Assembly (NCBI GenBank): GCA_040218145.1
Contig: JAVJQK010000134.1
Location: 1-64,000, forward strand
Direction of reading: 5' to 3'
Origin: Sandaracinaceae bacterium
Lineage (GTDB): Bacteria; Myxococcota_A; Polyangia; Polyangiales; Sandaracinaceae
Length of the DNA: 64,000 nt
The position numbers and the translations under genes were made by a program. Of the stretch, positions 31,967 through 47,454 are shown piece after piece (position 1 is the first letter of the stretch; each line of letters opens with the position of its first letter). Under the pieces are notes generated by a model, which searched no databases, had not been told where the DNA came from, and was given only the letters and a program-made list of their open reading frames with translations.

Positions 31967-32788
31967 GTGGACGACCTCCCCGCGCTGCTGGAACGGACCG
32001 TCGCGATCGCCGAAGAGGCGGGCGCGCTCCTCCTCGAGGGGTTCCGTGGCGCGCCCGCCGTGGAGGCGAAGGGGGAGGGCGGGGACCTCGTCACGGCGTA
32101 CGACCGACGCTGCGAGGCGCTGCTGCGGGACCGGCTCTCACCCCTCGTACCGGGCGCCCGCGTCGTCGGTGAGGAGGGCGGCGGCGAGCCGGGCGGGCTG
32201 GCGTGGTACGTCGACCCGATCGACGGCACGAACAACTTCGCCCACGGCCACCCCTGGTTCTGCCTCTCGATCGGCCTCTGGGACGGCGACGCGCCGCTCC
32301 TCGGTGTGGTGCACGCGCCGGCGATGCACCTGATGTACGCCGCGGCGTCGGGACTCGGCTGCCGGCGCAACGGCGCGCCCGCCCACGTCTCCAGCGCGAC
32401 GTCACTGGACGAGGCGCTGATGGCCACGGGGTTCCCGCACGACCGCGCGCGCCGGCCGGACAACAACTACCGGCCCTTCGTCACCCTCGACGCCCGGAGC
32501 CACGGCGTCCGGCGCTGCGCGGCCGCGGCCCTCGAGCTCTCCATGGTCGCGGACGGCGCGTACGACGCCTTCTGGGACGCCGGGTTGAAGCCCTGGGACC
32601 TCGCGGCAGGCATCTTGCTCATCCAGGAAGCAGGCGGGCGCGTCACCGACTTCGCGGGCGCTCCCGTCCGGTTCGTCGACGCCCCACATCCGGGACAAAT
32701 CGTGGCCACGAATGGCCCTCTACATCAGCCCCTGCAGGATGCGCTGGCGCACGCCCGTGCCTTGCCTCCGATCACACAGGTGACATAG
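31967..32788 (+). CDS. Inositol monophosphatase family protein
   Basis: Encodes 273 residues from a GTG. All magnesium-site motifs of the IMPase family are present: GEEGGG (usually GEE), WYVDPIDGTNNFAHG and KPWDLAAGILLIQEAGG. The family hydrolyses myo-inositol phosphate, and some members act on fructose bisphosphate or PAP. Because the inositol-3-phosphate synthase gene is two genes downstream, inositol phosphate is the likely substrate. It starts a long co-directional series that runs to 45282. Confidence 0.95.
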   Translation: MDDLPALLERTVAIAEEAGALLLEGFRGAPAVEAKGEGGDLVTAYDRRCEALLRDRLSPLVPGARVVGEEGGGEPGGLAWYVDPIDGTNNFAHGHPWFCLSIGLWDGDAPLLGVVHAPAMHLMYAAASGLGCRRNGAPAHVSSATSLDEALMATGFPHDRARRPDNNYRPFVTLDARSHGVRRCAAAALELSMVADGAYDAFWDAGLKPWDLAAGILLIQEAGGRVTDFAGAPVRFVDAPHPGQIVATNGPLHQPLQDALAHARALPPITQVT

Positions 32789-32878
32789 TCGCGCCCGGTC
32801 CAGACCGGGTGGGGGGCGGCTGGCGCCAAGCCACGATCAGTGGCACAAGCCCGCCGCCGCCGGAAGGAAGCAGTTCCG

Positions 32879-34537
32879 ATGGAGTCCAGCGAAGCCCAAC
32901 CTCGAGCGTCCGTCAGCTCGACCGAAGAGAAGCGCACGCCGACGCGTGTGAACGGCTCTCGTAAGCCCGTCGATCCCGGTCGCAAGCTCAAGCAGACGAT
33001 CTACCCGCCCGTGGTCGGGCAGGCGTTCTGGGCCACCGCGCAGGTGCGCGTGAAGATGTGGGACCGCGCGCTCCGTCGCCTCCGCGACGCGCAGGAGTCC
33101 ACGCTGCTCCGCTTCGTTCGGCACGCGCAGGACACCGAGTACGGCAAGCGCTACGGCTTCGGCACCATCCGCCGCTACGAGGACTACCGCCAGCGCGTCC
33201 CGGTCGGCGACTACGACTCCTTCGCCCCGAGCATCGAGCGCATGCGCCGCGGCGAGCGCAACGTGCTCGTCCCCGAGCTCATCAAGTACTTCGGCAACAG
33301 CTCCGGCAGCTCCAACAAGGGCAAGTCGAAGTTCCTGCCCATCTCCGAGCGGCAGATCAAGTTCCAGCGCGGCAGCGCCGCCGACTCGCTCTACCGCTAC
33401 CTCGTCTGGCGCGGCGAGAACGACTTCACGAGCGGCTTCACGCTCGGGCTCTTCCCGCCCACGACGATGAAGAAGGACGGGCCCACCTGGGTCACGACGA
33501 ACCCGTCGCTCCAGTCGCTGAAGATGCCGGCCTTCGCCAAGCCCGCGCAGCTCCCGGACAAGGACATCCGCGAGATCGACGACTACGACGCGAAGCTCGA
33601 GCAGATCGTCGACCGCTACTTCGACTACGACATCCGCGCCGTCGCGGGCACCACCTGCTGGTTCTCGCTCCTCTTCGACAAGCTGCTCGAGAAGGCGCGC
33701 GACAAGGGCCGTCACGTCGACAGCGTCAGCGAGATCTGGCCGAACCTCCGCGTGCTGGTGGGCGGCGGCGTGAGCGCCGACCCGTACCTCCCGGTCATCC
33801 GCGAGCGCATGGGCCGCGACGACGTCGTGCTCGTCGACACCTACAACGCGACCGAGGGCGGCATCTTCGCCGCGACCGATCACAGCGGCCTGCCCGGCAT
33901 GCTGATGATCCCCGACCGCGGCGTCTTCTTCGAGTTCGTGCCCGTCGAGGAGGCCGACGATCCGTGGCCGACCCGCGTGCCCCTCTGGGAGGTCGAGAAG
34001 GACCGCCTCTACGCGATCCACGTCACGACCCCGAGCGGCCTCTACAGCTACCGCCTCGGTGACCTCGTGCGCTTCCCCTCGCTCGACCCGCTCCGCGTGG
34101 AGTTCGCGGGCCGGCTCAGCGGCTGCCTCAGCACGACGCAGGAGCTGACGACCCACGTCGAGATCCAGCGCTCGGTCGAGGCCGCGCTCGAGGCGACGGG
34201 CACCCGCAGCGTCGACTACGGCGCCGCGGCCGACGTCGGCATCGACGGCACCGCCAAGAGCCGCTACGTGGTCTTCGTGGAGCTGCTCGGCGACGCTGGC
34301 GGGCTCGACCGCGAGAAGTTCATCGACGCCTTCGACGCGAAGCTCTGCGAGCAGAACCGCGTCTACCGCGAGCACCGAGACGGAGAGATCGCGATCCTCC
34401 GCCCCGAGCTCGTCGTGCTGCCCCCCGGTTCCGTGCGTCGCTTCATGGGCGACATCGGCAACCACAGCGTTCAGACCAAGTTCCCCCGGATCTTGGACGA
34501 CGACCGCAAAGAGATTCTCCGTTCGTATCTCCGCTGA
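32879..34537 (+). CDS. GH3-family acyl-acid amido synthetase homologue
   Basis: Encodes 552 residues from the ATG at 32879 with AAGGAAG upstream. The protein matches the plant GH3 (auxin-responsive) adenylating family across its length: EYGKRYGFGTIRRYEDYRQR, the ATP loop GNSSGSSNKGKSKFLPISE, VLVGGGVSADPYLP, DTYNATEGGIFA, SYRLGDLVRF, and a C-terminal domain with LVVLPPGSVRRFMGD. Plant GH3 enzymes adenylate an acid (auxin or jasmonate) and join it to an amino acid. Bacterial substrates are not known to me. The N-terminal ~45 residues are disordered and basic. It lies between inositol-phosphatase and inositol-phosphate-synthase genes. Confidence 0.9.
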   Translation: MESSEAQPRASVSSTEEKRTPTRVNGSRKPVDPGRKLKQTIYPPVVGQAFWATAQVRVKMWDRALRRLRDAQESTLLRFVRHAQDTEYGKRYGFGTIRRYEDYRQRVPVGDYDSFAPSIERMRRGERNVLVPELIKYFGNSSGSSNKGKSKFLPISERQIKFQRGSAADSLYRYLVWRGENDFTSGFTLGLFPPTTMKKDGPTWVTTNPSLQSLKMPAFAKPAQLPDKDIREIDDYDAKLEQIVDRYFDYDIRAVAGTTCWFSLLFDKLLEKARDKGRHVDSVSEIWPNLRVLVGGGVSADPYLPVIRERMGRDDVVLVDTYNATEGGIFAATDHSGLPGMLMIPDRGVFFEFVPVEEADDPWPTRVPLWEVEKDRLYAIHVTTPSGLYSYRLGDLVRFPSLDPLRVEFAGRLSGCLSTTQELTTHVEIQRSVEAALEATGTRSVDYGAAADVGIDGTAKSRYVVFVELLGDAGGLDREKFIDAFDAKLCEQNRVYREHRDGEIAILRPELVVLPPGSVRRFMGDIGNHSVQTKFPRILDDDRKEILRSYLR

Positions 34538-34586
34538 CGCGCGAATACGATTCTAGTCAACGTCCCTTTCGAGAAAAGTGAGTCCG

Positions 34587-35798
34587 ATGCAGAACAAGCT
34601 CGGTGTGGCCATCATCGGCGTCAACGGCGCCGTCGCTTCGACCCTCATCGCCGGTGCGCGCCTCATGGCGCGTGACCTGGCCCCGCGCCTCGGCATGCTC
34701 ACCGAGCCCGGTGGCAACCCCGCTCCCGGCGAGCAGGTGACCGATTTCCTCCAGTTCCCGAAGATCGAAGAGATCTACTTCGGCGGCTGGGACCTCGCGC
34801 ACGGCAACGTCTACGACGCGGCCGTCCACCACAACGTATTGCCCAAAGAGAAGCTCGACGCGATCAAGGACGAGCTCCAGGGCATGAAGCCGTGGCCGGC
34901 CGTCTTCTCGGGCGAGTACGCCGAGAACTGCAAGGGCGACAACGTCGTCACCGCCAAGGACTTCCGCGGCGAGCTCGAGCACATCACGGGCTGCATCGAG
35001 AAGTTCAAGAGCGACAACGGCCTCGACACCGTGGTGATGGTCAACCTCGCCTCGACCGAGCGCTGGATGGAGCTCAGCGAGTCGCACAAGACGCTCGCGA
35101 ACTTCGAGAAGGGCCTCGACGCGAACGACCCGTCGATCTCGCCGGCGATGCGCTACTTCTACGTGGCCAACAAGCTCGGCTGCCCGTACGTCAACTTCGC
35201 CCCCAGCCTCACGAACGTCCCGGCGCTCGAGGAGCAGGCGAACGAGCTCGGCAACCCCTACGCGGGCATGGACGGCAAGACCGGCCAGACCCTGCTCAAG
35301 ACCGCGCTCGCGGCGATGTTCAAGGTCCGGAACATCAAGGTCGAGGGCTGGTACTCGGTCAACTTCCTCGGCAACAACGACGGCCTCGTCCTCGACTCGC
35401 CGGCCTCGAACAAGACCAAGGTCCTCTCGAAGGCGGCCGTGCTCGACTCCATCGTCGGCTACCGCGTCGAGAACCACCAGGTCCACATCCACTACTACAA
35501 GCCCCGCGGTGACGCGAAGGAGGCCTGGGACAACATCGACATGGTCGGCTTCGCCGGCGTGCCGATGCAGATGAAGATCAACTTCCTCTGCCAGGACTCG
35601 ATCCTCGCCGCGCCCCTCGTCATGGACCTCGTCCGCCTCTGCGACGCGGCCAAGCGCAAGGGAGAGAAGGGCATCCAGCGCCAGCTCTCGATCTACTTCA
35701 AGAGCCCCTACACCTCGCCCGGCGAGCAGGCGCAGCACAACCTCTTCGACCAGGAGCAGCTGCTCGTCGACTGGGCGAAGAAGCACGCGGACAAGTGA
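34587..35798 (+). CDS. ino1: Inositol-3-phosphate synthase
   Basis: Encodes 403 residues. It turns glucose-6-phosphate into inositol-3-phosphate with internally recycled NAD. Visible: an N-terminal Rossmann GVAIIGVNGAVASTLIAGA, VVMVNLASTERWMEL, SPAMRYFYVANKLGCPYVNF, the catalytic-region DGKTGQTLLKTALAAMFK, GWYSVNFLGNNDG and NKTKVLSK. It is the shorter bacterial type and lacks long eukaryotic insertions. The ATG at 34587 starts the conserved N-terminus; a GTG at 34578 adds three residues. With the phosphatase at 31967 it gives the cell a complete route to myo-inositol. Confidence 0.96.
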   Translation: MQNKLGVAIIGVNGAVASTLIAGARLMARDLAPRLGMLTEPGGNPAPGEQVTDFLQFPKIEEIYFGGWDLAHGNVYDAAVHHNVLPKEKLDAIKDELQGMKPWPAVFSGEYAENCKGDNVVTAKDFRGELEHITGCIEKFKSDNGLDTVVMVNLASTERWMELSESHKTLANFEKGLDANDPSISPAMRYFYVANKLGCPYVNFAPSLTNVPALEEQANELGNPYAGMDGKTGQTLLKTALAAMFKVRNIKVEGWYSVNFLGNNDGLVLDSPASNKTKVLSKAAVLDSIVGYRVENHQVHIHYYKPRGDAKEAWDNIDMVGFAGVPMQMKINFLCQDSILAAPLVMDLVRLCDAAKRKGEKGIQRQLSIYFKSPYTSPGEQAQHNLFDQEQLLVDWAKKHADK

Positions 35799-35804
35799 GC
35801 GCGT

Positions 35805-35822
35805 GGGGCGCGAGAGCGCCCC
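35805..35822 (+). terminator. Stable hairpin with GAGA tetraloop after ino1
   Basis: GGGGCGC (35805-35811) pairs with GCGCCCC (35816-35822) around a GAGA loop, 7 nt after the ino1 stop. There is no T-run after it, so it may stabilise the 3' end or weakly attenuate read-through to the aminotransferase gene rather than terminate. Confidence 0.4.
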
Positions 35823-35886
35823 GCCTCTCCCCTTTGCCTCTGCCCCTGCCCCAGCCCGAGCCCGCGTGACCGCGGCATCGGGAACG

Positions 35887-35917
35887 ACGGGGTCTCGTGT
35901 GACCCACGGGACCCCGT
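35887..35917 (+). repeat. Inverted repeat before the aminotransferase gene
   Basis: ACGGGGTC (35887-35894) pairs with GACCCCGT (35910-35917) with a 15-nt loop. It lies in the 180-bp gap between ino1 and the aminotransferase gene. It may be a second weak terminator or an operator; there is no further evidence. Confidence 0.35.
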
Positions 35918-35978
35918 TCGTGCATCCAGGCTCCTCCCCACCGAAGACGCTCAGCCCCCGTTCAGAAGGAGACAGCGC

Positions 35979-37313
35979 ATGTCGTCGAAGCTCGCGATCC
36001 GCGGCGGCACCCCGGTCCTGACCGCCGAAGACCACCGCACCTGGCCGCAGGTGGAGGCGGAGGAGAAGGACGCCGTCATGGCCGTGCTCGAGCGCGGCAT
36101 CCTCAGCGGGGGGGACGCCCCCGAGGCGCGCGCCTTCGAGGAGGCGTTCGCCGAGTTCGTCGGCACGAAGCACGCGCTGTTGACGCACGCGGGCACGAGC
36201 GCGCTCCAGATCGCCGTCTCAGCCGCGGGCGTGAAGGCGGGCGACGAGGTCATCGTCCCCGCGTACTCGTTCATCGCGACCGCCCTGTGTGTCCTCGACC
36301 AGGGCGCGATCCCGCGCTTCGTCGACGTGGACGCCGAGAGCGGCAACCTCGACCCCGCGCTGGTCGAGGCGGCGATCGGCCCGCGCACCAAGGCCATCAT
36401 GCCGGTGCACGTGCACGGCAACCCGGCCGACATGGACGAGCTGCTCGCGATCGCGAAGAAGCACGGCCTCGTCGTGCTCGAAGACGCGGCGCAGGCGCAC
36501 GGCGCCACCTACAAGGGCCGCAACGCGGGCACGCTCGGCGCGGCCGCGGGCTTCTCGCTGCAGTCCAGCAAGAATCTCTCGGCGGGCGAGGGCGGCGTCT
36601 TCGTCACCGACGACGACGGCCTGATGGAGCACGCCAACCAGGCGCGCAACTTCGGTCAGGACCTGCGCCTCGCCGACCGCGGCCACTTCGACGCGAGCCG
36701 TCCGCTCGACGGCGGCCGGGCGCTGACCAGCCAGTTCCCGGGGCAGATGTTCCGCGGCAACGAGATGATGGCGGCCTTCGCCCGGGCGCAGCTGGCCAAG
36801 CTCCCCGCGCGGACGCGGGCGGCGCAGGAGAACGCCGCGCGCTTCGCGGCCGCGCTCGAGGAGCTCCCCGGGCTGCGGGCCCAGCGCATCCCGGACGATC
36901 GGCAGAGCGTGCACCACAAGCTGCGCATCTTCTTCGACGGCGCCGAGGCCGGCGTGGACTTGCCGCCGCGCAAGCTCCGGGACGCGCTCAAGGCCGCGCT
37001 CACGGCCGAGGGCGCCAACTGCGTGCTCTGGCAGGACCACGCGCTGCCCGAGCATCCGCTCTTCACGCGCTTCGAGGGGTTCGGGGGCGGCTGGCCGTTC
37101 CGGCTCGCCGAAGACCCCGAGGCGTTGCGCGCGAGCTACGATCCGGCCAACTTCCCTCGGACGAGGGCGCTCCTCGACGGCTCGGTGGTGCTCTTCTCCC
37201 AGACGCGCCCGCTCATCGCGCAAACGCCCGAGACCGTGGACCGCTACGCGGAGGCTCTCCGCAAGGTGTGGACGCACCGCAGCCAGCTGGTCGAGATCGC
37301 CGCCGAGCTCTGA
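35979..37313 (+). CDS. DegT/DnrJ/EryC1/StrS-family PLP aminotransferase
   Basis: Encodes 444 residues. It opens SSKLAIRGGTPVLTAEDHRT as this family does, with THAGTSALQIAVSAAGV, DEVIVPAYSFIATA, EDAAQAHGATYKG and the PLP lysine K198 in LQSSKNLSAGEGG. These enzymes transfer an amino group to keto-sugars or keto-cyclitols, e.g. scyllo-inosose in aminoglycoside synthesis. Next to an inositol-making pair, a keto-inositol substrate is a reasonable idea but is inference. AGGAGA lies 6-10 nt before the ATG. The next gene starts 8 nt after its stop. Confidence 0.93.
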   Translation: MSSKLAIRGGTPVLTAEDHRTWPQVEAEEKDAVMAVLERGILSGGDAPEARAFEEAFAEFVGTKHALLTHAGTSALQIAVSAAGVKAGDEVIVPAYSFIATALCVLDQGAIPRFVDVDAESGNLDPALVEAAIGPRTKAIMPVHVHGNPADMDELLAIAKKHGLVVLEDAAQAHGATYKGRNAGTLGAAAGFSLQSSKNLSAGEGGVFVTDDDGLMEHANQARNFGQDLRLADRGHFDASRPLDGGRALTSQFPGQMFRGNEMMAAFARAQLAKLPARTRAAQENAARFAAALEELPGLRAQRIPDDRQSVHHKLRIFFDGAEAGVDLPPRKLRDALKAALTAEGANCVLWQDHALPEHPLFTRFEGFGGGWPFRLAEDPEALRASYDPANFPRTRALLDGSVVLFSQTRPLIAQTPETVDRYAEALRKVWTHRSQLVEIAAEL

Positions 37314-37320
37314 GACACCC

Positions 37321-38376
37321 ATGGATCGAGACGCCCGAGACGACGTGTCCGCCGACGAGGTCGAAGAGACCTCGGAGGGGCGCGACCGTCTCCGGCTCCT
37401 CAAGAGCGTCGGTCGGTGGCTCCTCTTCGTCTTCGGGGTCGGCGGGCTCGTGTACCTCGTGCACGACGCGGGGCCGGAGGCGGTGTGGTCCACGCTCTAC
37501 GGCGCGGGCGTCTTCCTGCCCCTGATCATGCTCTGCGAGGTCGGCTTCGTGGGCATGGACGTGATCTCGCTCCGCCTCATGTTCGGAGAGCGCGCGCGCG
37601 AGGTGCCGTTCACGGTCTGGCTGCGCAGCGCGATGATGGCCTACGGCATCATGATCCTGCTGCCGGCCGGGCGCGCGGGCGGTGAGGTGATGCGCGCGGC
37701 CAACCTCGCGCCCTACATCGGCGGCGCGCGGGCCGCGGCCGGCGCCGCGCTGCTGCAGGGCGTGACCCTCTGGGGCAACACGCTGATCTCCATCCCCTGC
37801 TACGTCGCGGTGGCCTACGAGTCGGGCCCCACGTCGTGGCTCGCGCTCCTCGTGGCCGCCAACGGCATCGCGACCGGCGTGCTCGGCTCGGTCCTGCTCT
37901 TCGGCGCCCGCATGTCGCGCATCGGCGGCTGGCTGGGCCGCCGCGTCAAGGCGCTCGCGACGCACGGCGCGCACTTCGACGAGTCGCTCAAGGAGATGCA
38001 CGCGGTGCCGGCGCGCCCCATCGCGGCCGCGCTCGTCGGGCGCCTCTTCCAGTCGCTCCAGTACGGCCTCATCCTCCTCGCCGTCGGAGGCGCGCTCACC
38101 GCGGGCACCGCGCTGGTCTCGCAGGCGATCCACCTGGTCGGCGCCGGCCTCGGTGACATGGTGCCCAACCAGATGGGCATCACCGAGGGCGCCTACCGCA
38201 TCTTCCTGGAGTACCTCCCCGCGTTGACCGAGGCCCAGGCCATCGGCATCGCGCTGGTGCACAGGGTCTGTCAGTTCCTCCTCGCCGGCACGAGCCTGGC
38301 GATCGGCGCGCTCTGGCGTCCCGCCGAGGCGGCCGAAGAATCGGGCGCGATGAACGCAGGTGAGAGAGCCGCTTGA
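37321..38376 (+). CDS. LPG-synthase-TM (UPF0104/AglD-like) membrane protein
   Basis: Encodes 351 residues. After a charged N-terminus there are about seven hydrophobic segments (RWLLFVFGVGGLVYLV, GVFLPLIMLCEVGFVGMDVI, RSAMMAYGIMILLPAGRAGG, LALLVAANGIATGVLGSVLL, LFQSLQYGLILLAVGGALTA). The signature ILLPAGRAGGEVMRA and the GDMVPNQMGITEGAY loop match the lysylphosphatidylglycerol-synthase transmembrane family, whose members flip or modify lipids. The aminoacyl-transferase domain of MprF is absent. It overlaps the MMPL gene by one base. Confidence 0.88.
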   Translation: MDRDARDDVSADEVEETSEGRDRLRLLKSVGRWLLFVFGVGGLVYLVHDAGPEAVWSTLYGAGVFLPLIMLCEVGFVGMDVISLRLMFGERAREVPFTVWLRSAMMAYGIMILLPAGRAGGEVMRAANLAPYIGGARAAAGAALLQGVTLWGNTLISIPCYVAVAYESGPTSWLALLVAANGIATGVLGSVLLFGARMSRIGGWLGRRVKALATHGAHFDESLKEMHAVPARPIAAALVGRLFQSLQYGLILLAVGGALTAGTALVSQAIHLVGAGLGDMVPNQMGITEGAYRIFLEYLPALTEAQAIGIALVHRVCQFLLAGTSLAIGALWRPAEAAEESGAMNAGERAA

Positions 38377-40967
38377 TGGCCGACCGCGATCCCCAAGCAC
38401 CGAACGACGCGCCCCGGCCGTCCTTCGCCGAGCGCCTCGCGCGCGCCCAGCTCGAGGGGCCCTGGCGCTTCGTCGCCGCCGCCTTCCTGCTCGGCCTCGC
38501 TGCGCTCCCGGTCATCATCGGGGTCCCCGGTCTGACCGACGGACTGACCCTCAACAGCGACTTCACCGCGCTTCTGCCGCGCAGCGCGCCGAGCGTGCGC
38601 GACATGGACGAGATCCAGGAGCGCTTCGGCGGTCAGCAGGCGCTGATGATGACCGTCGAGGCCGACGATCAGGAGTCGCTGCACGCGTTCGTGCGGCAGC
38701 TCGCGCCGCGCATCGAGGCGATGGAGGCGCGCAAGGTCGTCGCGGTCGACTGGAACCTCTCGTCCTTCGAGGAGTTCGTCGAAGAGAACCGCCACCTCTA
38801 CGCCGACCTCGAGGACCTCGAAGAGATCCGCGACGCCCTGCAGGCGCGGCTCGACTACGAGCGCGCCACCGCGAACCCCTTCTACATCGACCTCGGCGAG
38901 GAGCCTCCGCCCGACCCGCGCGAGACGATCGAGCGGATCGAGGGCGACGCCGAGAGCGCCCGCAACGAGATGCGCGAGCGCTACCCCGGGGGCTTCTTCC
39001 AGCACCCGGATCGCACCCTGGTGCTGCTCGTGGTCCACACCCGGATCCGGGGCGGCGAGACGGCGGAGACCCAGGCGCTGGTCGACGCGATCGACGCCGA
39101 GGTCGCCGACATCGATCCCGGAGGGGAGGTCGAGGGCCTCGCCGTCCGGTACGGCGGGACGCTCATCGAGGTGCGCGACGAGACGGACTCGCTCGTCGCC
39201 GCGGTGCGCAACGCCACCCTGCTGACGATCGCGCTCGTGATGCTCGCGATCTACGTCTTCTTCCTGCGGGTCCGGCCCATCCCGCTGCTGAGCTTGGCGC
39301 TGATCCCGCCGGTCCTGATGACCTTCGGCTTCGCCGAGCTCTTCGTCGACTACCTCAACGCCTCGAGCGCGTTCCTCTCGAGCATCGTCGTGGGCAACGG
39401 GATCAACCCGAACGTGATCTGGCTCGCGCGGTACTTCGAGCTGCGCCGGGACGGCAAGGGCGTCTACGCCTCCGTGCTCGCGAGCCACCGCGGGACCTGG
39501 AAGGGCACGTTGACGGCCTCCCTCGCGGCTGGCGTCGCCTATGGCTCGCTGATGAGCACCGACTACCGCGGCTTCCGCGACTTCGGCATCGTCGGCGGCA
39601 TCGGCATGGTGCTCTGCTGGGTGGCCGCGTACAGCCTCTTGCCCGCGCTCGCCGTCGCCTTCGAGCGGTTCCGGCCGCTCGAGTTCAACCGGACCAAGAA
39701 CCACAAGGGCTTCTACGGCGTCCTCTTCGCGAAGATCGCGCTCGGTCACCCGCGAACTGTGCTCGTGACGTCGCTCGTCCTCACCGTCGCCGCGGCCGGC
39801 ATGGTGGGCTTCGCGATCATGCAGGACCCGCTCGAGTACGACTTCCGCAACCTCCGCAGCGAGCGGGATCCGGGCTCGGACGTCGAGTACGTGCGCGAGG
39901 CGAGCCTCCCCATCCTCGACGAGACCAAGGTGGGCAGCGCGCTCGCCGTGCTGGCGGCGAGCCGCGAGGAGGCGCAGCGCCTCAAGGCCGCGTTCGAGGC
40001 CCAGCGCGACGACTACCCGCAGGCCTACGGCGACGTGCAGTCGATCGAGCGGCTGATCCCGGACGAGCAGGAGGCCAAGCTCGCCGTGATCGGTGAGCTG
40101 CGCGCGCTGATGCTGGAGATCCGTCCGCGCGTGGACGCGGAGATGCAGGCGCTGATCGACGAGCAGCTCCCTCCGGAGACGCTCTCCGCGGTCCTGCCCG
40201 ACCACCTGCCGCGCTCGGTCGCGCGCCCCTTCACCGAGCGCGACGGCACCCGCGGCCGGCTCGTCTTCGTCGAGCACCACCCAGCGGAGAACAACTGGGA
40301 CGGCCGCTACACCGCGCGCTGGGCCGAGGCGGCGCGGGAGATCTCCGCCGAGGACGACGACGATCCGCCGCCGGTCGCCGGCACCGCGGTGGTCTTCGTC
40401 GATCTCGTCGACACGATCTTCGAGGACGGCCCCCGCGCCATCGGCATCGCCATGCTCGCGACCATGCTGCTCTTGGCCGTCACCTTCCGGAAGCACCGAG
40501 AGCGCTGGCTGACCCTCACGTCGCTGCTGGTCGGCATCATCTGGATGGCGGGTACGATGGCGATCTTCGGCATGCGGCTGAACTTCCTCAACTTCGTCGC
40601 CTTTCCGATCACGTTCGGGAACGGGGCCGACTACGGCGTGAACGTCATGCGGCGGGTGGACGAGGAGGAAGAAGAGGGAAAGAGCCCCCTGGACGCCATC
40701 CGCGCGTCGGTCGAGGGCACGGGCGGGGCGGTGATCCTCTGCTCGCTCACCACGGTCATCGGCTACATCTCGATCTACACGAGCAGCAACCAGGCGCTGA
40801 ACAGCTTCGGCGCTGCGATGGCCATCAGCGAGGTCACCTGCCTCGCGGCCGCGGTTCTGGCGCTGCCCGCCGCGCTCCACCTCTGGGCCGAGCGCTCGGC
40901 CAAGAAGGCGAAGCCGGAGGGTCGCGAGAGCCATCCCGGTCGAGACGTCCGCGCTTCGGAAGTGTAG
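38376..40967 (+). CDS. MMPL/RND-superfamily transporter
   Basis: Encodes 863 residues. Two repeated halves are visible, each with one N-terminal membrane helix, a large periplasmic domain and a group of five helices. In the first half is LLTIALVMLAIYVFFLRVRP, then SSIVVGNGINPNVIWLARYF. In the second is IGIAMLATMLLLAVTFRKHR, then FPITFGNGADYGVNVMRR. The paired FGNG.DYG/VGNGINPN segments lie in the usual position of proton-relay residues. Family members export lipids, e.g. hopanoid or mycobacterial lipid transporters. It overlaps the gene before it and is followed by an MCE gene. Confidence 0.93.
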   Translation: MADRDPQAPNDAPRPSFAERLARAQLEGPWRFVAAAFLLGLAALPVIIGVPGLTDGLTLNSDFTALLPRSAPSVRDMDEIQERFGGQQALMMTVEADDQESLHAFVRQLAPRIEAMEARKVVAVDWNLSSFEEFVEENRHLYADLEDLEEIRDALQARLDYERATANPFYIDLGEEPPPDPRETIERIEGDAESARNEMRERYPGGFFQHPDRTLVLLVVHTRIRGGETAETQALVDAIDAEVADIDPGGEVEGLAVRYGGTLIEVRDETDSLVAAVRNATLLTIALVMLAIYVFFLRVRPIPLLSLALIPPVLMTFGFAELFVDYLNASSAFLSSIVVGNGINPNVIWLARYFELRRDGKGVYASVLASHRGTWKGTLTASLAAGVAYGSLMSTDYRGFRDFGIVGGIGMVLCWVAAYSLLPALAVAFERFRPLEFNRTKNHKGFYGVLFAKIALGHPRTVLVTSLVLTVAAAGMVGFAIMQDPLEYDFRNLRSERDPGSDVEYVREASLPILDETKVGSALAVLAASREEAQRLKAAFEAQRDDYPQAYGDVQSIERLIPDEQEAKLAVIGELRALMLEIRPRVDAEMQALIDEQLPPETLSAVLPDHLPRSVARPFTERDGTRGRLVFVEHHPAENNWDGRYTARWAEAAREISAEDDDDPPPVAGTAVVFVDLVDTIFEDGPRAIGIAMLATMLLLAVTFRKHRERWLTLTSLLVGIIWMAGTMAIFGMRLNFLNFVAFPITFGNGADYGVNVMRRVDEEEEEGKSPLDAIRASVEGTGGAVILCSLTTVIGYISIYTSSNQALNSFGAAMAISEVTCLAAAVLALPAALHLWAERSAKKAKPEGRESHPGRDVRASEV

Positions 40968-41014
40968 GATGCCGGCCGTCGACGCTCCGGGATCGAGCGC
41001 GCGTGAAGTAGACG

Positions 41015-42523
41015 ATGGGCGATAGGGTCAAGGCGGCGAAGGTGGGAGCGCTCGTGATCGCCGCGGTGGTGGCGGCGTTCGGCATCTGGCGCCTGGTCGA
41101 CGAGCGGGCCGGCACCGACGACGGCCGGCGCGTCTGCGCCGTCTTCGACAACGCGCACGGCCTGATCACCAAGAGCCGGGTCACGATCGCGGGCATCCCC
41201 GTCGGCTACATCGAGTCGATCGAGCTCGAGGGGGCCCGCGCGCGGGTGGAGATGACGATCGAAGATCGCGTCGAGCTCTTCGAGAACGCGCAGATCGAGC
41301 GGCGCAGCGCGTCCCTGCTCGGCGAGTACATCCTCGCGATCGACCCCGGGAACGCCACCGCCGACCCGCTCCCCGCGGGGCACTGCATCCCGCAGGTCAC
41401 CGAGACCCCGGACACGGCCGACATCATGGCCGACGTCGGGGCGATCGCGGGCTCGGTCCGCGCGGTGGCGGCGCAGGTGGAGCGCGTCTTCGGCACCGAC
41501 GAAGGCGGGCGGCAGATGGCCGCCGCGCTCCGGAACCTCACCGAAGCCCTCGAGGCGGTCAATCGCACCATCCAGGCCAACGAGGCCGCGGTCACCACGA
41601 CGCTCCAGAACATCGAGCGCATCACGACCAACGCCGAGCCCGAGCTCGCCTCGATCCTTTCCAACGTCGAGGCGGTGACGCGCGACATGCGCAGCATCAT
41701 CGAGCACAACCGGGACGGCCTCGACGAGGGCGTGGGGGAGGTCGGACCGACCATCGCCTCGATCAACCGCGCGTCGCAGCAGCTCGAGCGCGTGCTCGAG
41801 GACGTGGGCGAGATCACCGAGCGCACCGCGGCGGGCGAGGGGACCATCGGGCGGCTGACTTCGGACGAGCACCTGATCGACGAGGCGGAGGAGGTCGTCG
41901 AGGGCATCAACAACCTCGTCGGCGGCTTCGCGCGGCTGCGCACGATCGTCTCGCTCCGCAGCGAGTACCTCTTCCTCGCGAACGCCTTCAAGAACTACCT
42001 CGAGATCCGGATCGCGCCGAGCGAGGACCGCTACTTCCTCATCCAGCTCGTCGACGACCCGCGCGGCCAGACCCAGTTCACGACGACCCAGGTGCGCACG
42101 AGCCCCCCACGCGAAGGTGAGCCCGCCTTCTACGAGGAGCGCCGCGCCACCACCACCGAGAGCCTGCTCTTCTCGCTGCAGCTCGCGAAGCGCCTCTACT
42201 TCGTCACCTTCCGGTTCGGCATCCTCGAGTCGAGCGGCGGCATCGGGTTCGATCTGCACCTCTTCGAGGACCGGTTCGAGATGAACGCCGACCTGTTCCG
42301 CTTCGGCGACCAGACGTTCCCGAACCTGCGGGTACGCTTCAACTACGAGATCGTCAGCACGCTCTACCTGGTCGGCGGCCTCGACAACATCCTGAACGCC
42401 GACGCCACCGTGCCCTCTCAGAACGGCGCCGACTTCTTTCTGGGCGCCATGCTCCGCTTCGACGATCGCGACCTCGTCGGCCTGTTCCCGTTCCTCGGCG
42501 GCCTCGCCGGCGCCGCGAACTAG
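41015..42523 (+). CDS. MlaD/MCE protein with C-terminal barrel-like domain
   Basis: Encodes 502 residues. One N-terminal membrane helix (VGALVIAAVVAAFGIW) is followed by a single MCE domain (~45-130: CAVFDNAHGLITKSRVTIAG, IPVGYIESIELE, SASLLGEYILAIDPGN). Then ~190 residues of coiled-coil-prone helix (AAVTTTLQNIERITTNAEPE) and a C-terminal ~170-residue beta-rich part (NYLEIRIAPSEDRYFLIQLV, FGILESSGGIGFDLHLFEDR, LVGLFPFLGG). MCE proteins form lipid tunnels across the envelope. No MlaE permease or MlaF ATPase is near, and the MMPL gene 47 bp upstream may be the inner-membrane partner. Confidence 0.92.
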   Translation: MGDRVKAAKVGALVIAAVVAAFGIWRLVDERAGTDDGRRVCAVFDNAHGLITKSRVTIAGIPVGYIESIELEGARARVEMTIEDRVELFENAQIERRSASLLGEYILAIDPGNATADPLPAGHCIPQVTETPDTADIMADVGAIAGSVRAVAAQVERVFGTDEGGRQMAAALRNLTEALEAVNRTIQANEAAVTTTLQNIERITTNAEPELASILSNVEAVTRDMRSIIEHNRDGLDEGVGEVGPTIASINRASQQLERVLEDVGEITERTAAGEGTIGRLTSDEHLIDEAEEVVEGINNLVGGFARLRTIVSLRSEYLFLANAFKNYLEIRIAPSEDRYFLIQLVDDPRGQTQFTTTQVRTSPPREGEPAFYEERRATTTESLLFSLQLAKRLYFVTFRFGILESSGGIGFDLHLFEDRFEMNADLFRFGDQTFPNLRVRFNYEIVSTLYLVGGLDNILNADATVPSQNGADFFLGAMLRFDDRDLVGLFPFLGGLAGAAN

Positions 42524-42618
42524 AGCGCGCCCGAGACTGGCGGGTGGGAGAGGCGGCGCAGGTTGCGCACATTGCTCCTTTACCGTGAGTGCGTACCTCG
42601 CTCCGGCTGGGGGGCACG

Positions 42619-44274
42619 ATGGAGACGCGAGATCTTCGAGACGCGGCGGGGGACCTCGTCGTCGACACGGACGTTTGCATCGTCGGGACGGGGCCGGCGG
42701 GGATCGCGGTGGCGCTCGAGGTCGCGCGGAGCGGCGCGCGGGTGGTGCTGCTCGAAGGCGGCGGGCGCTCGCGGGAGCCCGACACGCAGGCCCTCTACGA
42801 CCTGGAGTCGGTCGGCCACCCGTGGGGCGTGGAGGGGGCGGAGCGACGCGTGCGCGTGCTGGGCGGGTCGTCCACCGCGTGGTCGGGGCGCTGCGCGACC
42901 TTCTCGCCCATGGAGCTCCGCGCCCGCTCCTGGATCCTCGAGTCGGGCTGGCCGCTGTCGCCGGACGCGCTCGCGCCGCACCTCGAGCGCGCGGCGAAGC
43001 TGCTCGGGCTCGGCCCGCTCTTCGATGAAGACCCCGACGCCGCGTGGGACCGGTTCGGGGTCTCGCCGCCGACGCCGCGCCTCGACCCGGGACGACTCCG
43101 CACCCGGCTGTGGCAGTTCAGCCGCAACGGGGAGGGCGGCTACGTCGACGCGGCGCGTGACCTGATGCCGCGCCTCGACGTGCACCGGAAGGTCAATGTG
43201 TACCTGCACGCGAACGTGACGCGCGTGTTGAGCTCCGAGGGCGGGCGGGTGACCGGCGTGCGCGCCGCGAGCCTCGGAGGGCCGCAGCTCTGGGTGCGCG
43301 CGCCGCGGGTGGTGCTCGCGTGCGGTGGGCTCGAGAACGCGCGCCTCTTGCTGGCCTCGGACGATCGTCGCCCCGAGGGCCTCGGCAACGGGCACGACCT
43401 CGTGGGCCGCTATCTCCAGGAGCACCCGTCGCCCGTGCTGGGGACCTTCGCGCCGCGCGACGCGGAGCGCGTGCTCGATCGGCTCGGGCACTACTGGCTC
43501 GATGGATCCGGCGGTCGCCACGTCTACGCGGTGGGCGTCGGTCTCCCGGCGCGCGTCCAGGAGCGACTCGGCCTGCCGAGCGCGGTGGCCTACGTGAACG
43601 CGGAGCTGCGCGAGGACGCGGCCTGGCTCTCGCTGCGGCGGCTCGCGCGCGCCGACCTGGGCCCCTCCGAGCGGGCCAAGGAGGCGTGGAACGTGGTCCG
43701 CCGACCGCGGGAGCTGCTCGGCGCCGTCCTGCGACGCGCGCGGCATCGTCCCGAGATCCTCCCGGTGCGCCGCCTCTCGATGGTGTGCAACCCCGAGCCG
43801 ATCCCGAGCCCCGAGAGCCGCGTGACGCTGGCGCGGCGAAGGGACGCGCTCGGCGTGCCGCTCCTGCGCGTGGACTGGCGCATCGACTCCCGAGGGCGCG
43901 ACGCCTCGCTCGCGATGCTCGGCGCGCTCGAGCGGGAGCTGCCGCGGCTGGGCCTGCCGCGGCTGACGCCCAGCGACTGGACCCAGGACCGGGCGGACTG
44001 GCGCGCCGCGTTCGTCGATCACGCGCACCCGATGGGGACCACGCGCATGGCCTCGAGCCCTCGCCGCGGGGTGGTCGACGAAGACGGCCAGGTGCACGAC
44101 GTGCCGGGGCTGTTCGTGGCCGGGGCGTCGGTGTTCCCGACGGGCGGCACGGCCCACCCCACGCTGATGATCGCCGCGCTCGCGAGCCGCCTCGGCGCTC
44201 ACGTGCGGGCGCTCGTCGAGGCCGAGGTGAGCCCGCAGGTGAAGTCGACGGAGCGCGTGGCGCACGTGGCCTGA
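42619..44274 (+). CDS. GMC-type FAD-dependent oxidoreductase
   Basis: Encodes 551 residues from the ATG at 42619 with a G-rich site just upstream; a GTG at 42589 is possible. FAD-binding DVCIVGTGPAGIAVALEVAR is near the N-terminus, VLGGSSTAWSGRC follows, and the C-terminal catalytic part has VDHAHPMGTTRMASSP and GGTAHPTLMIAALASRLG. The usual active-site pair is His/His or His/Asn; here both motifs carry His. Family members oxidise primary or secondary alcohols, including sugars and cyclitols. Inositol oxidation is an attractive but unproven fit to its neighbours. Confidence 0.93.
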   Translation: METRDLRDAAGDLVVDTDVCIVGTGPAGIAVALEVARSGARVVLLEGGGRSREPDTQALYDLESVGHPWGVEGAERRVRVLGGSSTAWSGRCATFSPMELRARSWILESGWPLSPDALAPHLERAAKLLGLGPLFDEDPDAAWDRFGVSPPTPRLDPGRLRTRLWQFSRNGEGGYVDAARDLMPRLDVHRKVNVYLHANVTRVLSSEGGRVTGVRAASLGGPQLWVRAPRVVLACGGLENARLLLASDDRRPEGLGNGHDLVGRYLQEHPSPVLGTFAPRDAERVLDRLGHYWLDGSGGRHVYAVGVGLPARVQERLGLPSAVAYVNAELREDAAWLSLRRLARADLGPSERAKEAWNVVRRPRELLGAVLRRARHRPEILPVRRLSMVCNPEPIPSPESRVTLARRRDALGVPLLRVDWRIDSRGRDASLAMLGALERELPRLGLPRLTPSDWTQDRADWRAAFVDHAHPMGTTRMASSPRRGVVDEDGQVHDVPGLFVAGASVFPTGGTAHPTLMIAALASRLGAHVRALVEAEVSPQVKSTERVAHVA

Positions 44275-44334
44275 CACGCCGCGCTCCTCGCTTTGAAATA
44301 GCCTCCCGACGCGATACGTACGCGTGGGGAGCCG

Positions 44335-45282
44335 ATGGGACTGAAGGACGGAGCGAAGGCGGTGGCGGGCAAGGCGGTCTCGCTCCCGAAGGCGACGGTG
44401 GTCGGCTTCTGGAAGGGGCTCGCCTATCCCTTCAAGGGCGCCAAGCTCGTCTTCTTCCAGCACCCGAAGCTCGCGCGCTTCTGGATCGTGCCGATCCTCA
44501 TCACCGTCGTGCTCCTGACGGGCGCGCTGTGGGGAGGCTGGGCCGCGCACGAGAGCGTGACGGACTGGATCTGGGCCGATCCCACCGACGCGGCGAACGC
44601 GCTCAAGGCCATCGCGACCGAGAGCCTGAAGGACAAGCCGCGCGACAAGCTCCTGGTCCTGGCCACCGAGCCGGGCTTCTGGGCCGAGGCCGGGCACTGG
44701 GCGCACTCCGCGCTCGAGGTCCTGATCCTGTTGGTGCTGTGGACGGTCGGCATCCTCGCCGTGGTCATGCTCACCAACGTCGTGGCGGCTCCCTTCAACG
44801 ACTTCCTCAGCGAGGAGGTCGAGCGCATCGTCACCGGCAAGCAGGGGCCCCCGTTCTCGCTGAAGGTGATCCTGCGCGACACCGTGCGCACGGTCGGGCT
44901 GGAGATCCTCAAACTCGTCATCTACGCGATGATCATGATCCCGCTGTTCTTGCTGGCGCAGCTCCTGCCGGCCGTGGGTCACGTCATCTACTCGGTGTTC
45001 GCGTTCCTGTTCACGGCGCTCTACTTCGCCGTCGACTACCTCGACTGGCCCGCGTCGCGTCGGAACCGCTCCGTCACCTACCGGTTCGGGCTGCTGACCG
45101 ACCACTTCATGCCGATGTTCGGCTTCGGCACCGGGGTGTGGCTGTTCCTGTTCATCCCGCTGGTGAACCTGCTCTTCATGCCCGCCGCGGTGGCGGGCGG
45201 GACGCTGCTGTTCCTGGACGTCGAGGGCCGCGCGCTCGGACCCGACCCCGCCGCGGACGCGACCTCCGAACAGAGCGGCTGA
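44335..45282 (+). CDS. EI24/CysZ-like membrane protein
   Basis: Encodes 315 residues. The N-terminal ~40 residues include GFWKGLAYPFKGAKLVFFQH, then PKLARFWIVP, the typical opening of EI24-domain proteins. Membrane segments: VPILITVVLLTGALWGGW, SALEVLILLVLWTVGILAVV, LEILKLVIYAMIMIPLFLLA and FLFIPLVNLLFMPAAVAGGT. NVVAAPFNDFLSEEVE is a family landmark. CysZ relatives import sulfate, but for EI24-type proteins in these bacteria the role is unknown. It is last in the co-directional series. Confidence 0.85.
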   Translation: MGLKDGAKAVAGKAVSLPKATVVGFWKGLAYPFKGAKLVFFQHPKLARFWIVPILITVVLLTGALWGGWAAHESVTDWIWADPTDAANALKAIATESLKDKPRDKLLVLATEPGFWAEAGHWAHSALEVLILLVLWTVGILAVVMLTNVVAAPFNDFLSEEVERIVTGKQGPPFSLKVILRDTVRTVGLEILKLVIYAMIMIPLFLLAQLLPAVGHVIYSVFAFLFTALYFAVDYLDWPASRRNRSVTYRFGLLTDHFMPMFGFGTGVWLFLFIPLVNLLFMPAAVAGGTLLFLDVEGRALGPDPAADATSEQSG

Positions 45283-45418
45283 ATCTTTCGGGTTTCGGGG
45301 CGTCGATGTCGGTCGTACCCCGCTTGAGGGGGCGTCCGGCCGCAGATATGCTCCCCGGGCGCCGACGGGGGCTCGTGCGCAGGCCCCAACGTTTTCGGGC
45401 TGGGTCTTGGAGGACCTC

Positions 45419-46417
45419 ATGAGGAGAAAGACCATCGTCAACCTCACGGTGATCGCGAGCTTGCTCTGCCTGCTCGCCGTCACCGTGGAAGCGCAGCGCG
45501 GCCGCCGCGGCCGACGCGGGAGCCGTCAGGCGAGTCAGCAGCCGCAGGCCGCCCCGAACAGCGAGGCCATCGCGGGCGCGCTGGGCGACCTGCGCTGGGG
45601 CATGGAGCCACGGGCGGTGCACCAGTACTTCTCGAACCGCATCCAGGAGCGCTACCGGGCGCGTCTCTCGAAGGCGCCCGGCGCGATCGAGGAGGACCGC
45701 ATCCGCCGGGAGCAGTCGGACGAGATCCGTCGCCTGCGCGAGAGCTACGTGCGCTTCGACGGAGAGCGCAGCGGCTGGGACCTCTCGTTCCTCCGCGGCG
45801 AGTTCACCCACGGCAACCGCGAGTCGATGCTCGTCTACCGCGACGAGAACTCGCAGAACTTCTACTTCTTCATCAACGGCCGACTGTGGAAGTGGTTCAA
45901 GGCGTTCGACGCCAGCGTCTTCCACGGCCAGAGCTTCGAGCAGTTCGCCACCGCCGTGCAGGGCCGCTTCGGAGAGGGTCGCGAGCAGTCGGGCGAGTCC
46001 GGCGGCCGGCCCCAGCACTGGCTGGAGTGGCAGGACGCGAACACGCGCCTCCGCGCCATCGACCAGACCCGGTTCTACGGCTTCTACTGCCTCGTCTTCG
46101 AGGACAAGGGCACGCTGAATCGGCTGGACGAGCTGCGGACGAACACCATCGAGTCCGGGCAGGGGGATGGCCACGCGCTGGTCGACTCCGTGCTGCTCCC
46201 GGAGGATGGCGAGACGGGCAGCTCGGGCGACGGCAACGCCGACATCGCCGATCGGATCACGGGGCGCATCCGACGCCGCCAGCAGGCGCCCGAGGGCTCG
46301 ACCGGCTCTCGGGGCCGCTCCGGGTCGAGCGGCTCCAGCTCGGGGTCGAGCGGCAGCTCCGGGTCGAGCGGCTCGCGCGGCTCGAGCGGCGGTGGGCTCG
46401 ACCTGTCGGATCTCTGA
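45419..46417 (+). CDS. Secreted protein of unknown function with Ser/Gly-rich tail
   Basis: Encodes 332 residues. The ATG has an ideal GGAGG 5 nt upstream. Signal peptide: MRRKTIVNLTVIASLLCLLA, then VTVEAQR. After a basic, Gln-rich segment, residues ~45-235 form a folded domain: LGDLRWGMEPRAVHQYFSNR, LRESYVRFDGERSGWDLSFL, SQNFYFFINGRLWKWFKAFD and FEQFATAVQGRFGEG. The end is a long RGRSGSSGSS-type repeat and LDLSDL. I recognise no family. A strong terminator follows 25 bp after the stop. Confidence 0.75.
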   Translation: MRRKTIVNLTVIASLLCLLAVTVEAQRGRRGRRGSRQASQQPQAAPNSEAIAGALGDLRWGMEPRAVHQYFSNRIQERYRARLSKAPGAIEEDRIRREQSDEIRRLRESYVRFDGERSGWDLSFLRGEFTHGNRESMLVYRDENSQNFYFFINGRLWKWFKAFDASVFHGQSFEQFATAVQGRFGEGREQSGESGGRPQHWLEWQDANTRLRAIDQTRFYGFYCLVFEDKGTLNRLDELRTNTIESGQGDGHALVDSVLLPEDGETGSSGDGNADIADRITGRIRRRQQAPEGSTGSRGRSGSSGSSSGSSGSSGSSGSRGSSGGGLDLSDL

Positions 46418-46442
46418 CCGGTCCGCTGCTCCCATCTCCCGA

Positions 46443-46471
46443 GGGGACGGCGTGTCACGCCGTCCCCTTTT
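46443..46471 (+). terminator. Rho-independent terminator
   Basis: GGGGACGGCGT (46443-46453) pairs perfectly with ACGCCGTCCCC (46457-46467) around a 3-nt loop, followed by TTTT. It lies 25 bp after the secreted-protein stop and is the cleanest terminator in the window. Confidence 0.9.
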
Positions 46472-46570
46472 CGCGTCTCGTCGCCAATTCGTCCGCTGAC
46501 GGTGTCGCTGTTCGTTTTCCGTGGTCGCAATGCGAGACGCACTTCCGTACAATCGCGGGAGAGGACGGTC

Positions 46571-47419
46571 TTGCCGCGTTTTCGACTGCGATTCCTGCTC
46601 CAGGAGTTCGATCTGGTGGGTCCCGAGGTGGTCCTGGGGCGGAGCCCCGACTGCCACATCACCATCGAAGATCCGCTGATCTCGCGCCGACACGCGAAGA
46701 TCTCGATCCGCGAGGAAGAGGCGAAGATCGCCGACCTCGGGAGCCGGAACGGCGTGCGCGTGAACGGTCGCTCCATCGACGAGGAGCACGTCCTCTCGGA
46801 CGGAGACCGGATCCGCCTCGGCACCCAGGAGCTGCTCTTCAGCGTCGTGCGGCGCAAGGATCGGCCGGCCCGGCCGACGGGCTACATGCGGGTCTGCCAC
46901 AGCTGCGGCACCCCGTACCCCGAGGGCAGCCCGAGCTGCCCCCACTGCGGCGCGCCGGCCCTCGAGGAGGAGGACACGGTCAGCGGCATGATGGTGGAGC
47001 CGCGGCGCAACTGGACCTTCCAGCTGCTCGGAGAGGTCATCGAGCGAGCCCTGTCGACGGGGCGCGCGGCCGAGGCCGACCGCCTCATGAGGCGCGCGGC
47101 CAAGGAGGTCGACGACCGGCTCTCCGCGGGCGAGCGGCTCGACACCGAGCACATCTCGATGATCTCCAGCTTCGCGGTGCGGCTCGCGCGCCTCGTCGGT
47201 GGGAGCGAGTGGGTCGCGTGGGCGCTGACGCTGCACCGCCGGCAAGGCAAGATGCTCTCGGACGAGGTGATCGACAGGCTCGCGGAGATCGATCTGTCGT
47301 CGCTGCCCGACGTGCCCGTGGTGCTCGAGAGCTACGTGGGCTGGTACAAGACGAGCCCGCCCGCGGCGCCGAGCCCGGACCTCGCGCGCCTGGCTCGCCT
47401 CGAGCAGATGCTCGGCTGA
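46571..47419 (+). CDS. FHA-domain protein with zinc ribbon
   Basis: Encodes 282 residues from a TTG at 46571 that matches the start of its paralogue at 48261 and has GAGGA 6 nt upstream; a start at 46502 is also open. The N-terminal FHA domain has VVLGRSPDCHITIEDPLISR, RHAKI and DLGSRNGVRVNG, with the phosphothreonine-binding Arg, Ser, His and Asn intact. Then comes a zinc ribbon (CHSCGTPYPEGSPSCPHCG), and a ~150-residue helical domain shared with the paralogue. It probably binds phosphorylated partners of Ser/Thr kinases. Confidence 0.92.
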   Translation: MPRFRLRFLLQEFDLVGPEVVLGRSPDCHITIEDPLISRRHAKISIREEEAKIADLGSRNGVRVNGRSIDEEHVLSDGDRIRLGTQELLFSVVRRKDRPARPTGYMRVCHSCGTPYPEGSPSCPHCGAPALEEEDTVSGMMVEPRRNWTFQLLGEVIERALSTGRAAEADRLMRRAAKEVDDRLSAGERLDTEHISMISSFAVRLARLVGGSEWVAWALTLHRRQGKMLSDEVIDRLAEIDLSSLPDVPVVLESYVGWYKTSPPAAPSPDLARLARLEQMLG

Positions 47420-47454
47420 GCCCGGAGCCCGCCTGACCCGAGAGGCTGCGGCGC

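Follow-up and report, generated by a model that had tools for sequence, protein, structure and literature searches.

A candidate gene system for the synthesis and export of an N-acylated aminocyclitol in Myxococcota

What product could bring together a myo-inositol-1-phosphate synthase, an aminotransferase, a GH3-family ligase and membrane proteins of lipid-handling types in a single run of genes? The question is raised by nine plus-strand genes at positions 31967-45282 of a 64,000-nucleotide stretch of a Sandaracinaceae genome (the window), which a preliminary description had read as one system making and exporting an acylated, inositol-derived amine. We find that the first seven of these genes are grouped beyond chance and are not random neighbours. 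The best reading of them, which we consider evenly poised between right and wrong, is that 31967-42523 forms the main part of a Myxococcota system for the synthesis and export of an N-acylated aminocyclitol, most likely an amide lipid. It is based on gene identities, linkage, co-occurrence, the clade of the INO1 synthase and protein folds, all of which were observed, and from these we infer the reactions, substrates and direction of transport. The seven genes, all on the + strand, are as follows.

31967..32788, +, inositol monophosphatase family protein (Pfam Inositol_P, 2e-60)
32840..34537 (alternative start ATG 32879), +, GH3-family ATP-dependent acyl-acid amido synthetase (GH3 N, M and C domains)
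34578..35798 (alternative start ATG 34587), +, myo-inositol-1-phosphate synthase INO1 (Pfam NAD_binding_5, 5.6e-66; Inos-1-P_synth, 7.1e-35)
35979..37313, +, DegT/StrS aminotransferase dependent on pyridoxal phosphate (PLP) (Pfam DegT_DnrJ_EryC1, 1.5e-85; PLP lysine K198, SLQSSKNLSAGEGG)
37321..38376, +, polytopic membrane protein of 351 residues with the MprF flippase-domain fold (AlphaFold2 model and fold match)
38373..40967 (alternative start ATG 38376), +, MMPL/RND-type lipid transporter (Pfam MMPL, 6.8e-38)
41015..42523, +, MCE/MlaD-domain protein with a single N-terminal transmembrane segment (Pfam MlaD, 1.9e-13)

All nine open reading frames of the region were confirmed, with a coding-type third-position GC content of 0.90-0.97, and the family calls made for them in the preliminary description have Pfam support. 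The call of an LPG-synthase-like membrane protein found no sequence-model match, but that protein has the MprF flippase fold at Z 17-19.

Conservation of the gene set was followed in three samples. GTDB genomes scanned with a GH3 alignment yielded 35 named loci (given here as L-numbers), 34 assigned to Myxococcota from titles or tree labels and one from Bdellovibrionota; a set of 56 relatives (G-numbers, the source genome being G000) contained the GH3 clade in 13; and a separate, even sample covered 235 Myxococcota genomes. In eight other Sandaracinaceae genomes the order phosphatase-GH3-INO1-aminotransferase-flippase-MMPL-MCE was kept as far as the contigs reach, with MMPL absent from the locus in two of the eight (L029 and L030), while the core GH3-INO1-aminotransferase-flippase was found across Myxococcota and once in Bdellovibrionota. 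GH3 is followed by INO1 in 28 of the 35 loci. Of the remaining seven, L051 and L070 are truncated by the end of a contig, L067 and L068 hold a second GH3 paralog whose genome has the standard locus as well, and L044, L061 and L069 are variants. INO1 is followed by the aminotransferase wherever the contig continues (22/22) and the aminotransferase by the flippase in 17 of 19 loci. The phosphatase, which lies upstream of GH3 in Sandaracinaceae, is present in 13 and MMPL in 14 of the 35, and the MCE gene occurs in the locus only within Sandaracinaceae.

Co-occurrence follows the same lines. The aminotransferase subfamily was found in 12 of the 56 relatives, every one of which also has the GH3 clade; in the thirteenth GH3-bearing genome, G030, the contig ends inside INO1. 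In the even sample GH3 was present in seven genomes and the aminotransferase in six, all within those seven. Pairwise divergence of GH3 and INO1 runs in step (r = 0.91), and pairwise identities covary among GH3, INO1, aminotransferase, flippase and MMPL with r of 0.71-0.91, in both cases with none of 2000 permutations as high; shared species history contributes to this covariation. The scattering of genes among relatives that the preliminary description had named as grounds for giving up the idea was looked for in the Myxococcota survey and did not appear for the seven genes. The nine genes, however, are not one unit: seven recur together in Sandaracinaceae, whereas the GMC oxidoreductase and EI24 genes at the downstream end do not belong to the system, the latter only probably so. 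Other locus neighbours (kinase, Omp85, FHA) were considered as members and rejected, being present in few loci only.

Enzymes of the GH3 family adenylate an acid and then transfer it to an amine. In the window protein the N, M and C domains of this family were matched at 1.3e-34, 3.7e-15 and 1.8e-13 (120.3, 56.2 and 51.6 bits against a curated cut-off of 23.6 each), and the nucleotide-binding motifs SSGSS.KG..K (with S155 invariant), DTYNATE and SG[LM]Y.Y.[LI]GD are kept in 12 relatives. These were compared with the motifs of OlsH, in which S115 is the essential serine, and of JAR1 (PMC12493201). OlsH converts fatty acid, ornithine and ATP to N-acyl ornithine and uses long-chain fatty acids (PMC12493201), and its model NF052613 was the best family match to the window protein. 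As this match reached only 236.3 bits against a cut-off of 620 (223-273 bits for the relatives of the window protein), the sequence places it as a distant relative of OlsH and not as an OlsH. We propose that it is the amide-forming ligase of the system.

The synthase of the locus carries both Pfam domains of INO1 and conserves K281, K285, K314, K375, D268 and D340, as do the other cluster INO1 proteins and INO1 proteins elsewhere; a dead or altered enzyme was rejected, since every catalytic residue is kept. Its profile has 7nwr as the closest solved structure (398 bits). The phylogeny sets the locus INO1 apart from its counterparts in other Polyangiales as a distinct clade (support 100/100). 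Five genomes (G001, G006, G030, G032 and G053) have two INO1 genes belonging to two deep clades, one in the locus and one resembling that of most Polyangiales, and the source genome, like most Sandaracinaceae genomes, has the locus type only. The neighbouring phosphatase is proposed to dephosphorylate either the INO1 product or its aminated form.

The aminotransferase, for which we propose the role of amine maker, is structurally closest to Fic25 of ficellomycin synthesis (8gyh; 267 bits, Z 46.3, 43% identity over the structural alignment). The inosose aminotransferases BtrR and RbmB gave 174-176 bits, Z 40 and 29-33% identity. The preliminary description had assigned the enzyme to the StrS type that aminates inososes; its DegT/StrS family stands, but the substrate class was too specific, as Fic25 is nearer than the inosose enzymes. 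A second copy of the subfamily, 57% identical, lies elsewhere in the source genome (L073:8702-14039, on G000:C143). Near it are an iron protein resembling haem oxygenases (PF14518, below cut-off) and a YcaO protein, and it may belong to another pathway with the same amination.

The gap between INO1 and the aminotransferase (35799-35978) is the longest of the region, in which the successive intergenic distances from the first gene to the ninth are 51, 40, 180, 7, -4, 47, 65 and 60 bp. Gaps before the aminotransferase and before the MCE gene had been noted as possible transcript boundaries; the former is indeed 180 bp, but the latter only 47 bp. The 180-bp gap holds GC-rich inverted repeats without a T run, namely GGGGCGC-GAGA-GCGCCCC right behind the INO1 stop and, further downstream, a longer repeat, and the gap measures about 22 bp in the close relative L024. 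A scan of the region for sigma-70-type promoters gave no match, a result of little weight for this phylum.

The membrane protein behind the aminotransferase matched no Pfam or NCBIfam model. Its AlphaFold2 model (mean predicted local distance difference test 88.6) superposed on the flippase domain of six MprF structures with Z 17-19 over about 275 residues, while the next unrelated fold gave Z 5.5. The best match was 6lvf (Z 19.0, 274 residues, root-mean-square deviation 3.9), which gives the protein the fold of an MprF-type flippase domain. It lacks the C-terminal lysyl-phosphatidylglycerol synthase domain, its 351 residues aligning only with about the first 340 of the 800-830 residues of MprF. 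On the strength of this model we propose it as the flippase of the product. For MMPL, the NCBIfam models HpnN and BstA were among the nearest, below cut-off, and the MCE protein is proposed as an accessory restricted to Sandaracinaceae. The flippase and MMPL, joined in Sandaracinaceae by MCE, would fit export of the product.

The system extends beyond the locus. The two remaining genes of the region and two unlinked genes of the source genome are given below.

42589..44274, +, window GMC oxidoreductase, glucose/fructose dehydrogenase-like (Pfam GMC_oxred_C, 2.1e-26), judged outside the system
44335..45282, +, EI24/CysZ-like membrane protein (Pfam EI24, 1.5e-34), a lineage-local neighbour, probably outside the system
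contig C33, 17441-18991, aldehyde dehydrogenase (ALDH), unlinked to the locus (ortholog search)
G000:C33:22818-24692, a different GMC oxidase of ~650 residues (GMCb), unlinked to the locus, ~4 kb from ALDH

The window GMC, once suggested as the maker of a keto-cyclitol, found no counterpart at E <= 1e-40 in the other Sandaracinaceae genomes, its best match among 55 relatives being 37% identical; with no ortholog there it was rejected for this role as a chance neighbour. Among the eight other Sandaracinaceae genomes, EI24 adjoins the locus in the two nearest genera and nowhere else. The GMC oxidase of the system is instead GMCb, whose nearest relatives are choline and cholesterol oxidases. Its ortholog is present in exactly the 13 GH3-bearing genomes of the 56 relatives at 48-57% identity (in G032 as two contig-end pieces, 54-59%), the best match elsewhere being 43%. 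Of the 13, 11 have an ALDH ortholog (53-63% identity; best elsewhere 47%) and one more has a piece of it at a contig end (L075); GMCb and ALDH together flank the locus in nine of the 35 loci, across several families. Both belong to the system, though unlinked to the locus in the source genome. They probably serve the acid side, oxidising an alcohol through the aldehyde to the acid, because both accompany a second GH3 paralog that has no INO1 or aminotransferase (L067, L068). A sterol-derived acid, an idea that came from the HpnN/BstA-like MMPL and the MCE protein, was rejected as the general acyl part and is unlikely, because several GH3-bearing genomes (G030, G032, G053 and G008) lack oxidosqualene-cyclase-like genes; such genes are present in several GH3-free genomes.

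Variant loci give the best guide to the amine. L044:9908-16669 (JAHQVK010000050.1) has GH3, the MprF-like flippase and MMPL together with a PLP decarboxylase (PF00282, 1.4e-83), and neither INO1 nor aminotransferase; its predicted product is an N-acyl amine of a decarboxylated amino acid. In the Myxococcaceae locus L069:7539-14427 (JAEUJP010000864.1) a PF01408 dehydrogenase, a distant DegT aminotransferase, GH3, an amine-oxidase-like flavoprotein and a methyltransferase stand in a row. With a decarboxylase in the one and a dehydrogenase and aminotransferase in the other, the gene near GH3 thus tends to be an amine maker, and the swap in L044 fits INO1 and the aminotransferase jointly making the amine. 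The second GH3 paralog of Sandaracinaceae (L067, L068, L035 and L036) has ALDH and a GMC oxidase as neighbours but neither INO1 nor aminotransferase. The arrangement resembles a module that turns an alcohol into an acid for a GH3 ligase, with the amine gene absent; a cytochrome P450 lies near the paralog in L035, which is the same locus as L067.

The proposed pathway would begin with the conversion of glucose-6-phosphate to inositol phosphate by INO1 and removal of the phosphate by the phosphatase. An enzyme without an assigned gene would oxidise the inositol to a ketone, which the aminotransferase would turn into an amine. On the acid branch GMCb and ALDH would oxidise an alcohol to a carboxylic acid, which GH3 would activate with ATP and join to the amine. 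The MprF-like protein would then flip the product, and MMPL, with MCE in Sandaracinaceae, would shift it toward the outer envelope. The ketone may come from an unlinked dehydrogenase, from GMCb acting on the ring, or from INO1 passing inosose phosphate to the aminotransferase. Inosose phosphate is an established intermediate of myo-inositol-phosphate synthase chemistry; its release by the locus INO1 straight to the aminotransferase is our speculation. More tentatively, and with the chances somewhat against it, the loci may represent a previously unknown class of modular N-acyl-aminoinositol lipids in Myxococcota, in which amine and acid modules converge on one GH3 and a shared MprF-like flippase/MMPL exporter, and in which INO1 might hand over inosose phosphate in this way. 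The interchangeable amine modules would be INO1 with the aminotransferase, the PLP decarboxylase, or the PF01408 dehydrogenase with its aminotransferase, and the acid module GMC with ALDH.

Several observations weigh against an acylated aminocyclitol. No enzyme converting inositol to inosose is encoded in the locus, and a search of the source genome for IolG gave at best 27.8 bits against a cut-off of 355, with no family-level match. An inositol dehydrogenase of the PF01408/IolG type is absent from the conserved set, the only PF01408 gene being that of variant L069; as an unlinked partner the L069 dehydrogenase had no match at E <= 1e-40 in the 56 relatives, an uninformative result for want of a positive control. 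Fic25, the nearest relative of the aminotransferase, has a linear diamino-hydroxy acid as the ligand in its PDB title, and the window enzyme resembles inosose enzymes no more than it does many sugar aminotransferases. The phosphatase is missing from many loci, acid and amine specificity is unreadable from sequence, and GMCb could act on a cyclitol rather than an alcohol. The co-occurrence counts, moreover, stand for fewer independent events than genomes, since kin genomes share history.

The last of the enzymatic points can be put as a sub-variant compatible with the acylated aminocyclitol, in which GMCb is the missing inositol oxidase and ALDH acts alone on the acid side. It is favoured by the perfect co-occurrence of GMCb with GH3 and by a ketone step otherwise without a gene, but GMCb is nearest choline and cholesterol oxidases, not polyol enzymes, and GMC and ALDH flank the GH3 paralog that lacks INO1 and aminotransferase in L067 and L068; we regard it as doubtful. 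A greater departure would be a lipid akin to ornithine lipids, with an N-acylated amino acid formed by an OlsH-like GH3 and with INO1 serving a separate phosphoinositide head group. The best family match is after all OlsH, the product of which is N-acyl ornithine (PMC12493201), and in most Sandaracinaceae, the source genome included, the locus INO1 is the only one and may also supply other inositol lipids. The GH3 score nevertheless lies far under the OlsH cut-off, ornithine lipids need no co-inherited INO1 and aminotransferase, and in L044 a single amine-making enzyme substitutes for that pair. With a second INO1 of the other clade in five relatives, inositol supply alone is an insufficient account of the locus INO1, and we consider such a lipid unlikely.

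A soluble, exported aminocyclitol amide in place of a membrane lipid would resemble hygromycin A, itself an amide of an aminocyclitol. The proposed aminocyclitol route of hygromycin A has the same steps, through Hyg18, the phosphatase Hyg25, the dehydrogenase Hyg17 and the aminotransferase Hyg8 (PMC10949010); the nearest structure to the aminotransferase is likewise from an antibiotic pathway, and the distribution is patchy (7/235 genomes). Yet the conserved set is without further biosynthetic, resistance or regulator genes, the MprF-like flippase, MMPL and MCE are of lipid-handling types, and long-chain fatty acids are the substrate of OlsH, a relative of the GH3 (PMC12493201), so that a soluble product appears distinctly unlikely. 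Finally, the metabolic and envelope genes might be unrelated and share no pathway, having clustered by chance or as housekeeping genes; this reading would agree with the window GMC and EI24, which are indeed unrelated neighbours. For the seven-gene set it is refuted by the survey, given a gene order kept across several families and Bdellovibrionota, congruent divergence and co-occurrence, and we find it hardly credible. An exported acylated inositol-derived amine thus stays the best reading, with INO1, phosphatase, aminotransferase and GH3 conserved together with an MprF-type flippase and MMPL; the roles that the preliminary description gave to the window GMC and EI24 fall away.

Downstream of EI24, window 45407-48261 encodes a 336-residue protein without a Pfam match, a protein combining FHA with a zinc ribbon, and a divergent FHA protein, of which the first two trail the locus in L024, L026, L027 and L037 as well.

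Several described systems come close to parts of the proposed N-acyl-aminocyclitol system. The OlsH/OlsI ornithine-lipid pathway of Singulisphaera acidiphila (PMC12493201) shares a GH3-like ligase forming an acid-amine amide with ATP, the GH3 nucleotide motifs and linkage in a lipid operon. It differs in that the window GH3 falls short of the OlsH cut-off and has a one-residue insertion in motif I, that the conserved set is without OlsI or OlsG, that the amine branch is INO1 with an aminotransferase, and that a flippase and MMPL are attached. The aminocyclitol branch of hygromycin A (PMC10949010) likewise unites INO1, a phosphatase and a DegT/StrS aminotransferase; the locus, unlike it, is without a PF01408 inositol dehydrogenase and has a GH3 ligase and lipid transport genes but no antibiotic cluster. 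The MprF flippase domain has the same fold over the whole window protein, which is a stand-alone domain against MprF chains of about 800 residues, at 12-15% identity. Fic25 and BtrR/RbmB share the DegT/StrS fold and PLP lysine with the window aminotransferase, though Fic25 itself binds a linear diamino-hydroxy acid. Judged from its genes, the system would be a variant form of GH3-dependent amide-lipid synthesis. The open-access papers searched held no description of the combination seen in the locus, and nothing relevant on aminoinositol or inosamine lipids, or on inositol lipids in Myxococcota.

A lipid role was assigned to bacterial GH3 enzymes only in 2025, with OlsH, and most GH3 clades are without a known amine. 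One of these clades now gains a concrete candidate, inositol-derived, from genes co-inherited with the ligase. If the proposal is true, it would add a new head group to bacterial lipids and give a function to a second, specialised INO1; it would also predict a cargo for the MMPL exporter and the MprF-like flippase, all of this testable in a cultured species of Sandaracinaceae.

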